From: Niveibacterium sp. 24ML
GTDB taxonomy: Bacteria; Pseudomonadota; Gammaproteobacteria; Burkholderiales; Rhodocyclaceae
DNA length: 64,000 bases
Direction: 5' to 3'
Assembly (NCBI RefSeq): GCF_026586805.1
Contig: NZ_JAPFHA010000017.1
Coordinates: 1-64,000 of the forward strand
Shown: positions 9,690-15,552 of the stretch, one piece after another
How positions within the stretch are numbered: position 1 is the stretch's first letter
Layout: each line of letters starts with the position of its first letter
Program-made: the position numbers and the translations under genes
Notes under the pieces: model-generated
The model's database searches: none
The model's input: only the letters and a program-made list of their open reading frames with translations
What the model was told of the DNA's origin: nothing

Positions 9690-10594
9690 GCCTTGATCCC
9701 TCCCGGATGCTTTCGATTTGTCAGCCACACGCCCAGCAGCACCATGGCGCCACCGGCCAGCACCGACAGGCCGACATGTTCGTTCAGCAGCAAGGCCGCG
9801 AGCAAGACCGCGCTGACCGGCACCAGATTGATGAAGGCCGCCGCGCGCGCCGCGCCCAGCCGCATCACGCCGTTGGCGTACCACACATAGGAAAACCCGC
9901 TGCCGAGCACCCCCAGGTAGAGCAGCGCCGCCCACGCCTGCCAGGAAAGCACCGGCAGGCTGCGCAGCGACCCATCGACCAGCCCGGCGATCAGCAGCAT
10001 CAGGCCGCCAGCCAGCGAGGCGTAGAAGGTCATGCTCAGGGGCGAGAGCGTGCGACTCGCGCGGCGGCCGATCAAGGTGTAGGCGGTCCAGCCGGCAACG
10101 CAGCCGAGAATGGCCACTTCGCCACGACCGATCTCGCCGCGCAACAGGGCAAAGGGATCCCCGCGGCCAATCACCAGCAGGCAGCCGACCAGCGCAATCG
10201 CCACGCCAAGCAGGCGGGCCGGGCGCAGTGACTCGCCCATCAGCAGCCATGCCGCCAAGGCAACCGCCACCGGATTGAGGGCTATCACCAGCGCGCCGCG
10301 CCCCGCCTGCACCTGCTGCAGGCCGTAGAAGAAGCAAAGGTTGTAGAGCAGGATCCCGGTGGCGCCCATCGCCACGACACGCGCGGCATCCGCCCCGGTG
10401 ATCCGCGGCAGCCCGGCCGAGGCCCGCCACACCAGGGCTCCGAGCGTCAGGGTGCCGAGCACGAATCGCCAGCCCGCCGCCGACAGTGGCGGCATCTCGG
10501 CGGCAAGGATGCGCCCGGCGATCCAGGTACCACCCCAGATGATGGCAACGAGCACTTGCTGGGCGACGACGGCAAACGGCGGCGAGGCGGGCAT
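9686..10594 (-). CDS. EamA-family (DMT) transporter
   Basis: This 302-residue membrane protein has ten predicted hydrophobic spans arranged as two EamA repeats. Family landmarks include IIWGGTWIAGR in the first helix, GALVIALNPVAVALAAWLLMGE in the first repeat and LVPVSAVLLAALLLNEHVG in the second. Proteins of this type export metabolites, amino acids or drugs across the inner membrane. I chose the ATG at 10594 (MPASPPF), just before the first helix; a longer frame adds a polar N-tail with no family support. It is coupled to the downstream SDR. Confidence 0.87.
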   Translation of the reverse strand: MPASPPFAVVAQQVLVAIIWGGTWIAGRILAAEMPPLSAAGWRFVLGTLTLGALVWRASAGLPRITGADAARVVAMGATGILLYNLCFFYGLQQVQAGRGALVIALNPVAVALAAWLLMGESLRPARLLGVAIALVGCLLVIGRGDPFALLRGEIGRGEVAILGCVAGWTAYTLIGRRASRTLSPLSMTFYASLAGGLMLLIAGLVDGSLRSLPVLSWQAWAALLYLGVLGSGFSYVWYANGVMRLGAARAAAFINLVPVSAVLLAALLLNEHVGLSVLAGGAMVLLGVWLTNRKHPGGIKA

Positions 10595-10665: not shown

Positions 10666-12396
10666 TCAAGCCGCCACGCTGCTGACGATGGCAGCAAGCT
10701 CGGCACTCACCCGCTCCGGAACGCGCGCCGCGATCTGCGATTCGATTGCCTGCCGTGCAGCGCTGTCACCGCCGGCGCAGACCGCCTCGGCCCAGGCGAT
10801 GGCCAAGGCCAGCGGCTCGGCCGCTGCTGCCGCCACGTTGTGCCGCGTGCGCAACCAGTGCAGGACGTTGGGTGGAACATGCCAGGAGGCCAGCATCAAC
10901 CAGGTCTCGTCAATGCCGTCCACCACGCGCATCGCCCGCGATGGCAGGGCAAGCCGAGCGAGATCGCAGGCGAAAGCCGCGAGCGCCAGCGCGGCCGCGT
11001 CGGCCGGTGCAAGATGGCGTGCCAGCACGCACGCCGCGCGCGAAGCCAGCGCCCCACGGCGCCAGATTTCACGCAGCTGCGCGGGCGAATCGGCAGATGC
11101 CGTCGGAACGCAAGCCTCGACAATGCTCCGCAGCGCGTCGGCCGGAATCCGGGCGAGGAGCGCGGCATCCAGGATGCAGGTCTCGCGCGCACCCTGAGCG
11201 GCCTCCGCGCAGTAAGCCAGCACGCGCAGGTGCAGGACCGGATCCTCGGCCAGCGCCTCACACAGTTCAGCCGGCGTGGCACCGCCCTCGGCCAGCACGC
11301 CCCTGAGCCATGGCAGGCGCGGGCTATGGCGCGGCCAGCTCGGCGATGTATTCCAGTGCTCGGCGCGGCGCGCTCCAAACAGTTGTTGCGCCGCGCGCCG
11401 GCACAGCGCCGGCGTGACGCCGAAGCGATCGCGAAAGGCACGCTCAAAAGTATTGCGGTCGGCGTAGCCGATGCGCTGCGCCAGATCGTCGGTCTTTTCG
11501 TCCGAGCCGAGGATCGCGTCCATCGCAAGCCGCGCGCGATGCGCTGCAAGCAGCGCCGAGAAGCGGCACCCCTCATCGGCCAGTTGGCGGCGCAGCGTAC
11601 TGGCGCCGATCGCCAGCGCGGCGGCGGCGGCATCGAGGCCAAGGTTGCGCAAATCAGGCTGAGCCGCCAACCAGCGGGCGACGCGAGACGCCGCCGTGTC
11701 CGATTGCCTGACCGCCGCGAGGCGCCCTTCATACATGGGCCTGATCGTGCGACGAAGGGCTGCGCTGGCCCCCGGCAGATGCAGCGTGAGCACCGCGGCC
11801 GGATAGCTCAGCGCGAACTCATCGGCTGCCATGCGCGGCGTAATGCCCAGCAAGCCGGACAGAGTCGCCAGGTCACCGACATCGCGCGTCATCAACTCGG
11901 CCTGCCGCATCGGCAGCGCAACGCCACTGATGTAGCTGAGCACGCGCGACAGCCAGACCAGGATCGACTCGTAGCGCAGGCGCACGCCCAGGCGCGCCGG
12001 CCGATGCATCGGAGCGAGCGCGATCCTCACCAGGCCCCCGTGACAGCCGCAGTGAAAGCGGCCATCGGGGAACAGCAGACCCGCCAGCCGCCCCATCTCG
12101 TCGAGCGCAGCGCCAAGGGAGTCATGGGCACGCAAGTAGTACACCAATCCGTCGCCGGCCGCCATGTCGAGCTCTGCCGCCAGCCACGCGAACGCATGCG
12201 GATCGCCGGCGGCATGGAGCCACTCGCTCATCTGCAGCGCCGTCTCGGCAGGCAGCGGCGTGGTGTCGGACGGCGCCACGCGGGTCAAACCAAAGCGCGA
12301 CTGCAAGACCTTGAGCCGCTCCGGCTGATCGCGATAGCGCACAAACAAGGCCTGGAAGTGCCGCATCTGCGGCACGTACTCATGCTCGTCGCTCAT
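10666..12396 (-). CDS. AraC-family regulator with HDOD-like C-terminal extension
   Basis: This 576-residue protein is much longer than the roughly 340 residues usual for its class. The N-terminal part (about 15-200) looks like the arabinose-binding-type domain of OruR/ArgR-like regulators. An AraC helix-turn-helix pair follows (about 240-340), with STLRRQLADEG and the second-helix signature IGYADRNTFERAFRDRFGVTP. Residues 341-576 are an all-helical alanine-rich extension whose pattern (LCEALAEDPVLHLRVLAYC, then an IWRRGALASRAA-like helix and AAFACDLARLAL) resembles an HDOD output domain without intact HD residues. The HDOD reading is my inference. The ATG at 12396 has GGTGGAG upstream. It is divergent from the ImpA-like protease gene, a possible target. 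Confidence 0.78.
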   Translation of the reverse strand: MSDEHEYVPQMRHFQALFVRYRDQPERLKVLQSRFGLTRVAPSDTTPLPAETALQMSEWLHAAGDPHAFAWLAAELDMAAGDGLVYYLRAHDSLGAALDEMGRLAGLLFPDGRFHCGCHGGLVRIALAPMHRPARLGVRLRYESILVWLSRVLSYISGVALPMRQAELMTRDVGDLATLSGLLGITPRMAADEFALSYPAAVLTLHLPGASAALRRTIRPMYEGRLAAVRQSDTAASRVARWLAAQPDLRNLGLDAAAAALAIGASTLRRQLADEGCRFSALLAAHRARLAMDAILGSDEKTDDLAQRIGYADRNTFERAFRDRFGVTPALCRRAAQQLFGARRAEHWNTSPSWPRHSPRLPWLRGVLAEGGATPAELCEALAEDPVLHLRVLAYCAEAAQGARETCILDAALLARIPADALRSIVEACVPTASADSPAQLREIWRRGALASRAACVLARHLAPADAAALALAAFACDLARLALPSRAMRVVDGIDETWLMLASWHVPPNVLHWLRTRHNVAAAAAEPLALAIAWAEAVCAGGDSAARQAIESQIAARVPERVSAELAAIVSSVAA

Positions 12397-12735
12397 CGCT
12401 CCACCCGTGATAGCCCCATTTCCACAGTCTACCCGCGCACTCAGAGCGCGGGAGCAGCAGTGATGAGCGGCTTTGCGGTAGGCGGCCCGCGCCTTAATCG
12501 CTAGGATGCCGCATCCTGTGGGTTGCCCCGAGGCCCCTGCCGCGCGCTGTGGCGCGGCCGCGCCGCACGCCAACCCGCAGCACCGGACGCGACACCCGCC
12601 CCACTGTGGCCCGGATGTCCTGCGCCCCAACGCCGCGCAACCCAAGGATGTGCGCGGGCTCACGTTCGAGATTCCTTCACATTGACTCATGGCGCCGTGA
12701 ATCGCGGCGCCGGCTTTTCTATTTCCGGAAGACGC
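12397..12735. promoter_or_regulatory. Divergent intergenic region between araC-type gene and ImpA-like protease
   Basis: This 339-bp gap separates two divergent genes and must carry both promoters. I see no strong -35/-10 pair. Candidate elements are an inverted repeat CCCGCGC-N7-GCGCGGG at 12432-12452, a short palindrome AGGATG-CCG-CATCCT at 12503-12517, and a GC hairpin at 12691-12711 just before the protease start. The first two could be operators for the AraC-type regulator, but with one copy each this is speculative. Confidence 0.4.
12691..12722 (+). terminator. GC hairpin followed by T-rich run in the protease leader
   Basis: GGCGCCG at 12691-12697 pairs with CGGCGCC at 12705-12711 around a 7-nt loop, followed by GGCTTTTCTATTT. 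This looks like an intrinsic terminator, yet it lies only about 25 bp before the start codon of the ImpA-like gene on the same strand. It may be a leader attenuator, the end of a short upstream transcript, or a hairpin that affects ribosome access. Confidence 0.4.
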
Positions 12736-15552
12736 ATGTTCAAGCTCCCCTTCAATACTTTCATCGCCCCGCTTGCGGCCTGCGCGATCGCCGCGACTCT
12801 GGCCGCGTGTGGCGGAGGCGGCGGCGACACGGCCGGCCCCGGCAGCGGCGACCCTGGCAATGGCAACAGCACCGGCGGATCAGGTAACAGCGGTAACACA
12901 GGCGGCTCGGGAAATACCGGCGGCGGCTCTGGCGGCACCACGCCGCCCGACCTTATTGCCCAGGCACTGCAAAGCGGTGACGCGAGCGCGCTGACCGCGC
13001 AGGATCGCCCCGCCCTGCTCGCGCGTGCAGTGAGCGCCGCGAACACGCTCGGCGCGAAACAGACCCAGGCGCTGGCCTCGATCTATGGCACCGACGTCAC
13101 ACAACTGGCGCTGAACCACAGCACCAACAGCAGTTCGATCACGGCCGCCAAGACGACGATCGCGACGCCGCTGATCGTGTCGGACGACGGCACCGGGATG
13201 GCGGCGATCGCACAGGTCGGCCCGGGACGCGGGCTCGCCTACGGCGCCAACGTACTGAGCTGGATGGCCGGCACCACGCGCGAGCAGCAGCACCTGCCGC
13301 TGTTCAACCGCGCCTTCGCCTGGCTGCTGACGGGCGACGGCGCCGCGAAGCTTCCGGCCACCCTCACGGTCGGCAGCGCGGGCTACGATGCCAACACGGT
13401 GAAAACCTACCTTGCCCGCGTGGGCAGCACCGCAAGCCTGACGAGCTGCAAGGTCGACGACCCGGCAAACACCTGCTGGAAGGATCTTGACCTGATCGTG
13501 TTCGGTTCAGGCACCACCGACAGCGCGGGGCTCTCCGCGCTGGTGCGCGGCTATCTGGAGGCGGGCAAGCCGGTGATCTACATGCACCCGAGCTGGGTGG
13601 ATTCGGCCGGCGGCCGCACCGTGCTCAGTGCGATGGGCATGAACCTCGGTGGCTACCCGGGCAACTACTTCGCCAGCGCCGAAGCGGTATCGGTTGGCGC
13701 CACACGCACCCGTGCCGACAGCCTCGCGCGCGGCGATCAGTTCGGCGCGCTGCTCAACACCCTCAATCTGCTCAGCCGCACCGACCTCACGCTGGACTTC
13801 ACTGACACCACGCCGCTGAGGCCGATCGACGCGGTGCAGACCGCGCTGTCTTCGATGCAGGCACGCGGCATCAACGTGTTCGCCGACCCGGACAGCGAGT
13901 TGTACCGCCTGCTGGTGCTGTGGGCCGACCAGGTTCGCACCGGCGTGGTCTACGGTGCACCGCTTTCCAGTAAGGGCGACTCGGACGACTTCCTGCGCGC
14001 CTACGCATCCGACTCCTGGCTGGTGTTCAACCGCGCCGCGACCACGATCCCGCCCAAGGGCGCCGGCGACTTCATGCCGGCAACAGCGAACAACATCGCG
14101 GTGAGCAGCGACTTCGAAGAGATCGAGGTGACGATCCCGCAAAGCGGCGGCATCACGCTGATCGGCCGCGCGGCGATCCCCGGCAAACCGGTGACGATCC
14201 AGGTCGTCGATACCGCCGGCGCCACCAGCCTCGGCGTGCAGACCAGCTACCTGCGCGCGTATGGCAAACCGCTCTCGGACACGAACTACGCACGCCCGCG
14301 TCGCCCGCACTCCTACACCATCCCGCTCGCCGCGGCCGGTGACACGAAGTTCATCACCCCGTTCGGCGGCCCGCTGATGCTCAACTACGGTGGCGCCACG
14401 GCAGGCACGGTGGTGAAACTGCGCATCAAGGGCAGCGCAAAGTACGGGCATTTCGATTTCACCGGCAATCCGTCACAGACGGAGATCGACGCCGCGTCGG
14501 CAGCCGTCGTGCGGGGCGAATTCGGCTGGCAGACCGCCAAGTTCATCGGCGGTGAGGTGCAGCAGTTGAACAAGTTCGCGCAGAACGTGCTGAGTCAGAT
14601 GAGCGCGCAGGAGTACGTGGTGGTGCGCCTCAAGGGCATGCTCTTCGACAGCAACCACTTCGCCAATGGCTACAACAACATGCCGATGTCGGCACTGGCG
14701 CAGAGCGTCTGCAGCCAATTGGGCTGGAACTGCGATGGCCCGCTCCACCGCGCTCCGAATGTGCAGCACTTCATCGGCTGGCTGGCTGCCTGCGGCTTCC
14801 TCTGCTCGGGCAATCCGTCCGACGGCAGCGCCGGCATCGGCAGCGGTTGGGGGCATGCCCATGAACTGGGTCACAACACGGTGCAGCGCGTGATGCACAT
14901 CGCGCCCAACGGCAAGGGCTGCGTGGTGGAGTGCGACAACAACATCCTCGCCAGCGCAACCATGATGCGGCAGTACGCGCTGATTGGCCTGGATACCGGC
15001 CACGCCACCGATCACCCGGGGCTCTACGCCGACATCGTCGCCAACCGCGCCACCGGGCTGACTGACGAAGCCCTTCGCGCCGACATGGAAACGCGCCTGT
15101 GGGCCTACGGTACCTCGCGCCAGGATCCATTGCGCGCGGTGCACTTCCAGATCGCCTTCCAGTACGCCAAGCTGCGCGGCGGGCTGGCGAAGCCGACCAT
15201 GGAAAGTACGCTGGAGTTCTTCCAGCTGCTGACCAAGGCCGACCGCCTCGTCGCCAAGGCCTGGGACGCCAACAACAAGGCCAAGTACGGCATGGGCCGC
15301 TTCGCCGACAACAAGATCAGCAACGAAGACCTGTTCTACGTGCTGAGCTCGAAGATCATCGGCCAGGACATGCGCAAACACTTCGCGATGTACGGCATCC
15401 CGCTCAGCCAGACTGCGCTCGACTCGATCGCCGATCTCGGCCTGCCGTCCGCATCGCGTAGTTTCTACGCGCTGGCCAAAGGCAAACACAACCAGCCGGC
15501 CACCGGCGCGTGGATGGACATTGAAAGCAGCACCCCGGCTTACGCATTCTGA
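12736..15552 (+). CDS. ImpA-like secreted metalloprotease lipoprotein
   Basis: This 938-residue protein has a signal peptide ending in a lipobox (ATLAAC) followed by a long Gly/Ser/Asn linker that would hold the enzyme away from the membrane. The catalytic zinc motif is HELGHN (His709, Glu710, His713). The overall build, with a central beta-rich domain before the HEXXH motif, matches the ImpA family of M88 metalloproteases. In Pseudomonas aeruginosa that enzyme cuts O-glycosylated mucin-like proteins; whether this one does is an inference. The ATG at 12736 is preceded by GGAAG. A strong terminator follows the stop. The AraC-HDOD gene is divergent upstream. Confidence 0.8.
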   Translation: MFKLPFNTFIAPLAACAIAATLAACGGGGGDTAGPGSGDPGNGNSTGGSGNSGNTGGSGNTGGGSGGTTPPDLIAQALQSGDASALTAQDRPALLARAVSAANTLGAKQTQALASIYGTDVTQLALNHSTNSSSITAAKTTIATPLIVSDDGTGMAAIAQVGPGRGLAYGANVLSWMAGTTREQQHLPLFNRAFAWLLTGDGAAKLPATLTVGSAGYDANTVKTYLARVGSTASLTSCKVDDPANTCWKDLDLIVFGSGTTDSAGLSALVRGYLEAGKPVIYMHPSWVDSAGGRTVLSAMGMNLGGYPGNYFASAEAVSVGATRTRADSLARGDQFGALLNTLNLLSRTDLTLDFTDTTPLRPIDAVQTALSSMQARGINVFADPDSELYRLLVLWADQVRTGVVYGAPLSSKGDSDDFLRAYASDSWLVFNRAATTIPPKGAGDFMPATANNIAVSSDFEEIEVTIPQSGGITLIGRAAIPGKPVTIQVVDTAGATSLGVQTSYLRAYGKPLSDTNYARPRRPHSYTIPLAAAGDTKFITPFGGPLMLNYGGATAGTVVKLRIKGSAKYGHFDFTGNPSQTEIDAASAAVVRGEFGWQTAKFIGGEVQQLNKFAQNVLSQMSAQEYVVVRLKGMLFDSNHFANGYNNMPMSALAQSVCSQLGWNCDGPLHRAPNVQHFIGWLAACGFLCSGNPSDGSAGIGSGWGHAHELGHNTVQRVMHIAPNGKGCVVECDNNILASATMMRQYALIGLDTGHATDHPGLYADIVANRATGLTDEALRADMETRLWAYGTSRQDPLRAVHFQIAFQYAKLRGGLAKPTMESTLEFFQLLTKADRLVAKAWDANNKAKYGMGRFADNKISNEDLFYVLSSKIIGQDMRKHFAMYGIPLSQTALDSIADLGLPSASRSFYALAKGKHNQPATGAWMDIESSTPAYAF

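Follow-up and report, generated by a model that had tools for sequence, protein, structure and literature searches.

The window, that is, the whole stretch of 64,000 nt analyzed here, belongs to the genome that we designate G000 and contains on its minus strand a gene for a 576-aa protein (the window protein) with a start codon at 12396, a last sense codon ending at 10669 and a stop codon extending to 10666. In this protein, an N-terminal domain of the AraC ligand type is followed by an AraC helix-turn-helix and then, at the C-terminus, by a divergent HDOD domain that is probably non-catalytic. The features that we annotated in and around the gene are as follows:

10666..12396, minus strand: AraC-HDOD fusion gene, open frame of 576 aa plus stop.
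11779..12297, minus strand: Arabinose_bd-type (PF12625) N-terminal sensor domain, residues 34-206, from a Pfam match.
11395..11625, minus strand: AraC-type DNA-binding domain (HTH_18), residues 258-334, from a Pfam match.
10669..11376, minus strand: C-terminal region with a degenerate HDOD domain, residues 341-576; the aligned core comprises residues 361-519.
12465..12512, no strand assigned: 48-bp element conserved in four genomes, a putative operator or promoter for the regulator gene.
12629..12664, no strand assigned: conserved ImpA-proximal block, which moves with the ImpA gene in genome G007.
12736..15552, plus strand: divergent gene, starting at 12736, for an ImpA-family metalloprotease of the HExGH type (NF038322), a probable lipoprotein with a lipobox-like LAAC.

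Orthologues with an intact frame of 574-592 aa are found in three other genomes, G120, G184 and G007, and are 66, 58 and 60 % identical to the window protein over their full length. As to whether the fusion is conserved in relatives, it is kept in four of the seven genomes of the genus, G000 included. These four are also the only carriers among the 297 family genomes sampled, the other 293 having no fusion, and searches of class (369 genomes) and phylum (398 genomes) samples retrieved a fusion match in G000 only and none outside the genus. The genome sets for family, class and phylum overlap, and the corresponding searches were restricted to a handful of best candidates in each genome and to E limits of 1e-20 to 1e-30; unrelated AraC-HDOD fusions that arose independently could therefore have escaped them. 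A search with the AraC half alone (E 1e-25, 199 family genomes) returned the same four genomes only, a scan of genome contigs for the fusion gave one locus, apparently contig C14 of G184, and a plasmid search for the fusion at E 1e-8 gave no match.

The N-terminal part is that of an ordinary AraC regulator. HTH_18 was matched by Pfam at residues 258-334 with an E-value of 1.7e-12 (47.9 bits against a cut-off of 33.6), and PF12625 exceeded its cut-off at residues 34-206 in a scan of residues 1-340 (32.7 bits against 27.6), being absent from the match list when the whole 576-aa protein was scanned with Pfam; both domains were matched in all four orthologues. The best NCBIfam model for residues 59-333 was QhpR (NF049968), whose 112.1 bits are below the cut-off of 250 and do not place the protein in that family. 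Residues 341-576 had no NCBIfam match.

The only Pfam match of residues 341-576 was HDOD (PF08668), which did not reach the gathering score of 22.9 bits either for the region alone (15.5 bits, E 0.012) or in a scan of the whole protein (11.4 bits, E 0.23); the region is therefore best called HDOD-like or a divergent HDOD. Among the orthologous C-terminal regions, three of the four had an HDOD match in Pfam (best E 5.9e-4), and one other family, CRAL_TRIO_N, appeared in a single region at E 0.036. When the four orthologous regions were compared by hhalign with eight HDODs from the same genome, homology was recovered over 161 columns with a probability of 93.5 and an E-value of 2.3e-7, against a probability of 0.2 and an E-value of 0.27 for the AraC part aligned to the same eight HDODs as a control. 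Searching solved structures with the single sequence gave one match at E values up to 10, namely 3m1t (E 0.0024); with the orthologue profile, 3m1t was found at E 0.0012, the other match being a designed knot protein (E 2.1). Entry 3m1t is itself an HDOD, matched at 2.4e-41 by a profile of eight ordinary HDODs. Over 199 family genomes, the orthologue profile detected the four fusions plus six weak places (5.9e-6 to 9.8e-5); those in G120, G184 and G007 fall inside PF08668 matches and, of the other three, one contains stop codons.

The sequence-only reading had proposed an HDOD-like region at residues 341-576 behind the AraC regulator, and this assignment is borne out, with the significance coming from the orthologue profile and its control and not from Pfam alone. 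The motifs that it had named could also be located: the DP helix at residues 385-386, the lWr motif at 445-446 and a degenerate LLHDIG at 475-480. Apart from this sub-threshold region, G000 has 13 HDOD matches that exceed the cut-off; the genome is rich in HDOD signalling proteins.

Conservation within the fused domain is uneven. Tryptophans W445 and W505 are present in all four fusions, as they are in most of the other aligned HDODs (25/27 and 23/27, respectively). The HD pair is broken in the four fusions (the window protein has CD, the three orthologues HN), and a segment of 15-25 residues (about 24) present in the 27 other aligned HDODs is missing from all four; the domain is thus not a complete HDOD with the loop and helix that follow the LLHDIG region. 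The missing segment and the broken HD pair therefore make phosphohydrolase activity of the fused domain unlikely, as judged from the alignment. According to the available part of a previous report, many HDODs lack such activity (PMC4114195). In a phylogeny, the four fusion HDODs formed a single clade on a long branch, with 3.54 changes per column, and the origin of the domain was not placed.

These features raise the question of whether the fused HDOD is a relic with no role beyond stabilising the dimer or the fold, all regulation coming from the ordinary AraC part. The loss of 15-25 residues against 27 other HDODs together with the broken HD pair, the long branch and the weak constraint on the last 30 residues would be expected of such a relic. 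Likewise, the HDOD part evolves faster, with pN/pS values of 0.41-0.50 for residues 361-545 and 0.19-0.41 for residues 1-340, values that are to be read with synonymous sites close to saturation. However, purifying selection acts on the HDOD core in all six orthologue pairs and the core retains invariant stretches such as GID.TW.L.A.WHV, and we regard a purely structural relic as somewhat doubtful. The conserved intact frame and the purifying selection thus indicate that the frame of the fusion is genuine and maintained by selection, rather than an error of assembly.

The gene divergent from the regulator, which the sequence-only reading had described as a secreted protease, codes for an ImpA-family metalloprotease according to NF038322 (867.4 bits against a cut-off of 250); its start codon and the lipobox-like LAAC were read from the sequence. 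The ImpA relative IMPa of Pseudomonas aeruginosa cleaves before O-glycosylated serine and threonine, as stated in the available part of PMC10010678. The protease encoded here probably cuts sugar-coated (O-glycosylated) proteins. ImpA occurs in the same four of seven genus genomes and the same four of 297 family genomes as the fusion, and both genes are divergently oriented in all four. As to whether an ImpA-like gene always lies beside the fusion, ImpA is nearby in every case; direct adjacency is seen in three genomes, the two genes being 4.3 kb apart in G007. Among 194 class genomes, ImpA was found only in G000 and G486, and the gene upstream of ImpA in G486 codes for a SAM-guanylate cyclase-AAA-TPR protein (L070 6538-9897, minus strand) and not for an AraC regulator.

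The neighbourhoods differ among carriers. G120 keeps the full order of thiolase, ImpA, regulator, EamA transporter, SDR, thioredoxin-like gene and acyl-CoA dehydrogenase. In G184, one copy of ImpA lies beside the fusion on contig C14, and a second, on contig C137, faces the EamA gene without an AraC-HDOD gene between them. In G007, two genes separate ImpA, which starts at 10201 of locus L032, from the regulator, whose start is at 14520. The corresponding features are:

G184, L033 11350-13470, L035 2-685, L034 7230-7913 and L013 3-1976: two ImpA copies, each truncated at a contig end.
G007, L032 10633-12321 and 12688-14049, minus strand, the same as ImpA: genes between ImpA and the fusion, coding for a protein of CHASE8-PAS-GGDEF architecture and one of 454 aa that has no Pfam match.

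A diguanylate cyclase gene is in this way found inside the divergent fusion-ImpA locus of G007. Additionally, a gene for a HATPase_c histidine-kinase-type protein is convergent downstream of the fusion in G184 (L013 4160-5644) and G007 (L032 16511-17989), on the minus strand; it is not beside the fusion in G000 or G120.

Within the intergenic region, the 48-bp element shows constant length and spacing in the four fusion genomes. A search of the seven genus genomes allowing up to three mismatches retrieved a single site per fusion genome, at the regulator, and no site in the three genomes without the fusion; the backward control pattern gave no site. The search pattern was written from the sequences of the four fusion genomes themselves, and the sole informative outcome is therefore that other sites are absent. 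The second conserved block, near ImpA, has 29, 26 and 26 of 36 identical positions in the pairs among G000, G007 and the C14 copy of G184, as compared with 21-23 at most in controls of 10 shuffles per pair, and was not above the shuffle control in G120 or in the C137 copy of G184. In G007 the 48-bp element remains with the regulator; together, element and block fit an intergenic region that was split by an insertion in this genome. Between 12380 and 12760 we found no sigma-70-like promoter and no clear direct or inverted repeats. A terminator-like hairpin of 10 pairs with a T-rich tail lies on the plus strand at 12690-12712, just before the ImpA start (shuffles average 0.3), and could allow attenuation control of ImpA via a leader.

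The position of the element bears on whether ImpA is a target at all, since the regulator might serve its own gene or other targets with ImpA as a mere physical neighbour. The element lies closer to the regulator start (68 bp) than to ImpA (223 bp), in G007 it is the regulator that it accompanies, and the second ImpA copy of G184 has neither the regulator nor the element, which a simpler search expression did not find at its loci. The intervening genes in G007, the element staying with the regulator and this lone second copy indicate that ImpA need not be the target and can stand alone. Against a chance association, the two genes share the same 4 of 297 family genomes, are divergent in all four, and their linkage survives two different gene contexts. 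Such linkage, seen in a single genus, does not amount to independent support for a function. On balance, we consider it unlikely that ImpA is simply a bystander.

The reading that we favour, with a probability of about 0.55, is that the window protein would be a one-component regulator acting locally on the protease locus. Its N-terminal Arabinose_bd-type domain would sense a small molecule, and the protein would bind the candidate 48-bp element upstream of its own gene, controlling that gene and probably also ImpA where ImpA is the divergent neighbour. The probably non-catalytic HDOD domain would tune DNA binding, either as a second input or as a contact surface for a dimer, a partner protein or a nucleotide. 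The hairpin before ImpA, with the attenuation that it could mean, counts against this reading. The suggestion, made with the original assignment, that the fusion links transcription to stress or phase signalling is a guess.

It might alternatively be that the HDOD domain reads a cyclic nucleotide or second messenger directly, coupling messenger state to a surface protease for O-glycosylated proteins, with the N-terminal signal acting alongside; we consider this quite improbable. In the available parts of the literature, c-di-GMP binding is reported for SadB, a YbaK-HDOD protein, the binding domain being not established (PMC6543031), an EAL-HDOD protein is linked to metals (PMC12607878), and the working mode of HDOD domains is still described as not established (PMC6543031, PMC11004494).

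Structure prediction also bears on the domain assignment. The full-length AlphaFold model made from the four orthologues was poor (pLDDT 54.9) and its fold matches give weak support; with this low-confidence model, Foldseek placed CdpR first (E 5.5e-8) and an N-terminal fragment of VirS second (E 0.0064), followed at ranks 3-5 by HDOD entries (E 0.042, 0.11 and 0.18). A model of residues 341-576 reached a pLDDT of 81.3 and a pTM of 0.79. Since 27 of the 31 rows of its alignment were ordinary HDODs, the predicted fold is consistent with the sequence result but not independent of it. The six best Foldseek rows for this model were all HDODs (E 0.015-0.085, none at or below 0.001), and the best VIA-align Z values were for 3p3q_B (17.0; 3.6 A over 216), 3ljx (14.8) and 1vqr (13.5), followed by 3m1t (11.2), 3hc1 (10.2), 3mem (8.8) and then HD-GYP domains (8.7). 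The six best VIA-align entries are all among the eight chains found by sequence with an HDOD profile. The C-terminal region is thus predicted to adopt the HDOD fold in the model with HDOD rows and, tentatively, also in that built without them. An unrelated fold, which would have contradicted the sequence-only reading, did not appear, and solved HDOD proteins are the first matches of the predicted fold. Although the Pfam score is sub-threshold, no Foldseek E-value is below 0.001 and high Z values can arise by chance among helical proteins, it is very improbable that the C-terminal helices are another helical fold matching HDODs fortuitously, because several model-free sequence comparisons, with a negative control, point to HDOD and because HDOD structures rank 3-5 even for the poor model built without HDOD rows.

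AraC-HDOD is a new combination of two known families. We found no such fusion in the openly accessible HDOD literature that we searched, and an earlier notice elsewhere, in subscription papers or architecture databases, is possible. Its reach is limited, being confined to part of one genus, and it adds an AraC plan that has a sensor ahead of the helix-turn-helix and a signalling domain behind it. CdpR, VirS and QhpR-like regulators share with the window protein the Arabinose_bd-type N-terminal domain and the AraC helix-turn-helix, but their models and structures stop there and have no C-terminal HDOD. Rob-type AraC proteins do carry a further domain C-terminal to the helix-turn-helix, as the window protein does, but theirs is of the GyrI-like kind and Rob is not known to have an N-terminal sensor, whereas the window protein has an HDOD and a sensor.

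As for the HDOD part, the fold predicted for residues 341-576 is that of MmoQ of Methylococcus capsulatus (3p3q, 3ljx), 3m1t, 3hc1, 3mem and Cj0248 (1vqr). These solved proteins are 17 % or less identical to the window protein and, as far as the entries show, have no AraC module; the window protein, in turn, lacks about 24 residues and has a broken HD pair. Other close parallels in the available parts of the reports are SadB of Pseudomonas (YbaK-like plus HDOD; PMC6543031) and GsmR of Xanthomonas (an HDOD response regulator; PMC4114195), which are, as proposed for the fusion, HDOD signalling proteins without catalytic residues or activity and affect gene expression or motility. No AraC DNA-binding module of their own is described there for SadB or GsmR, unlike the window protein, in which the HDOD domain is fused to a DNA-binding module that has a candidate site adjacent, so that DNA binding or transcription could serve as a direct readout of the effect of an HDOD.
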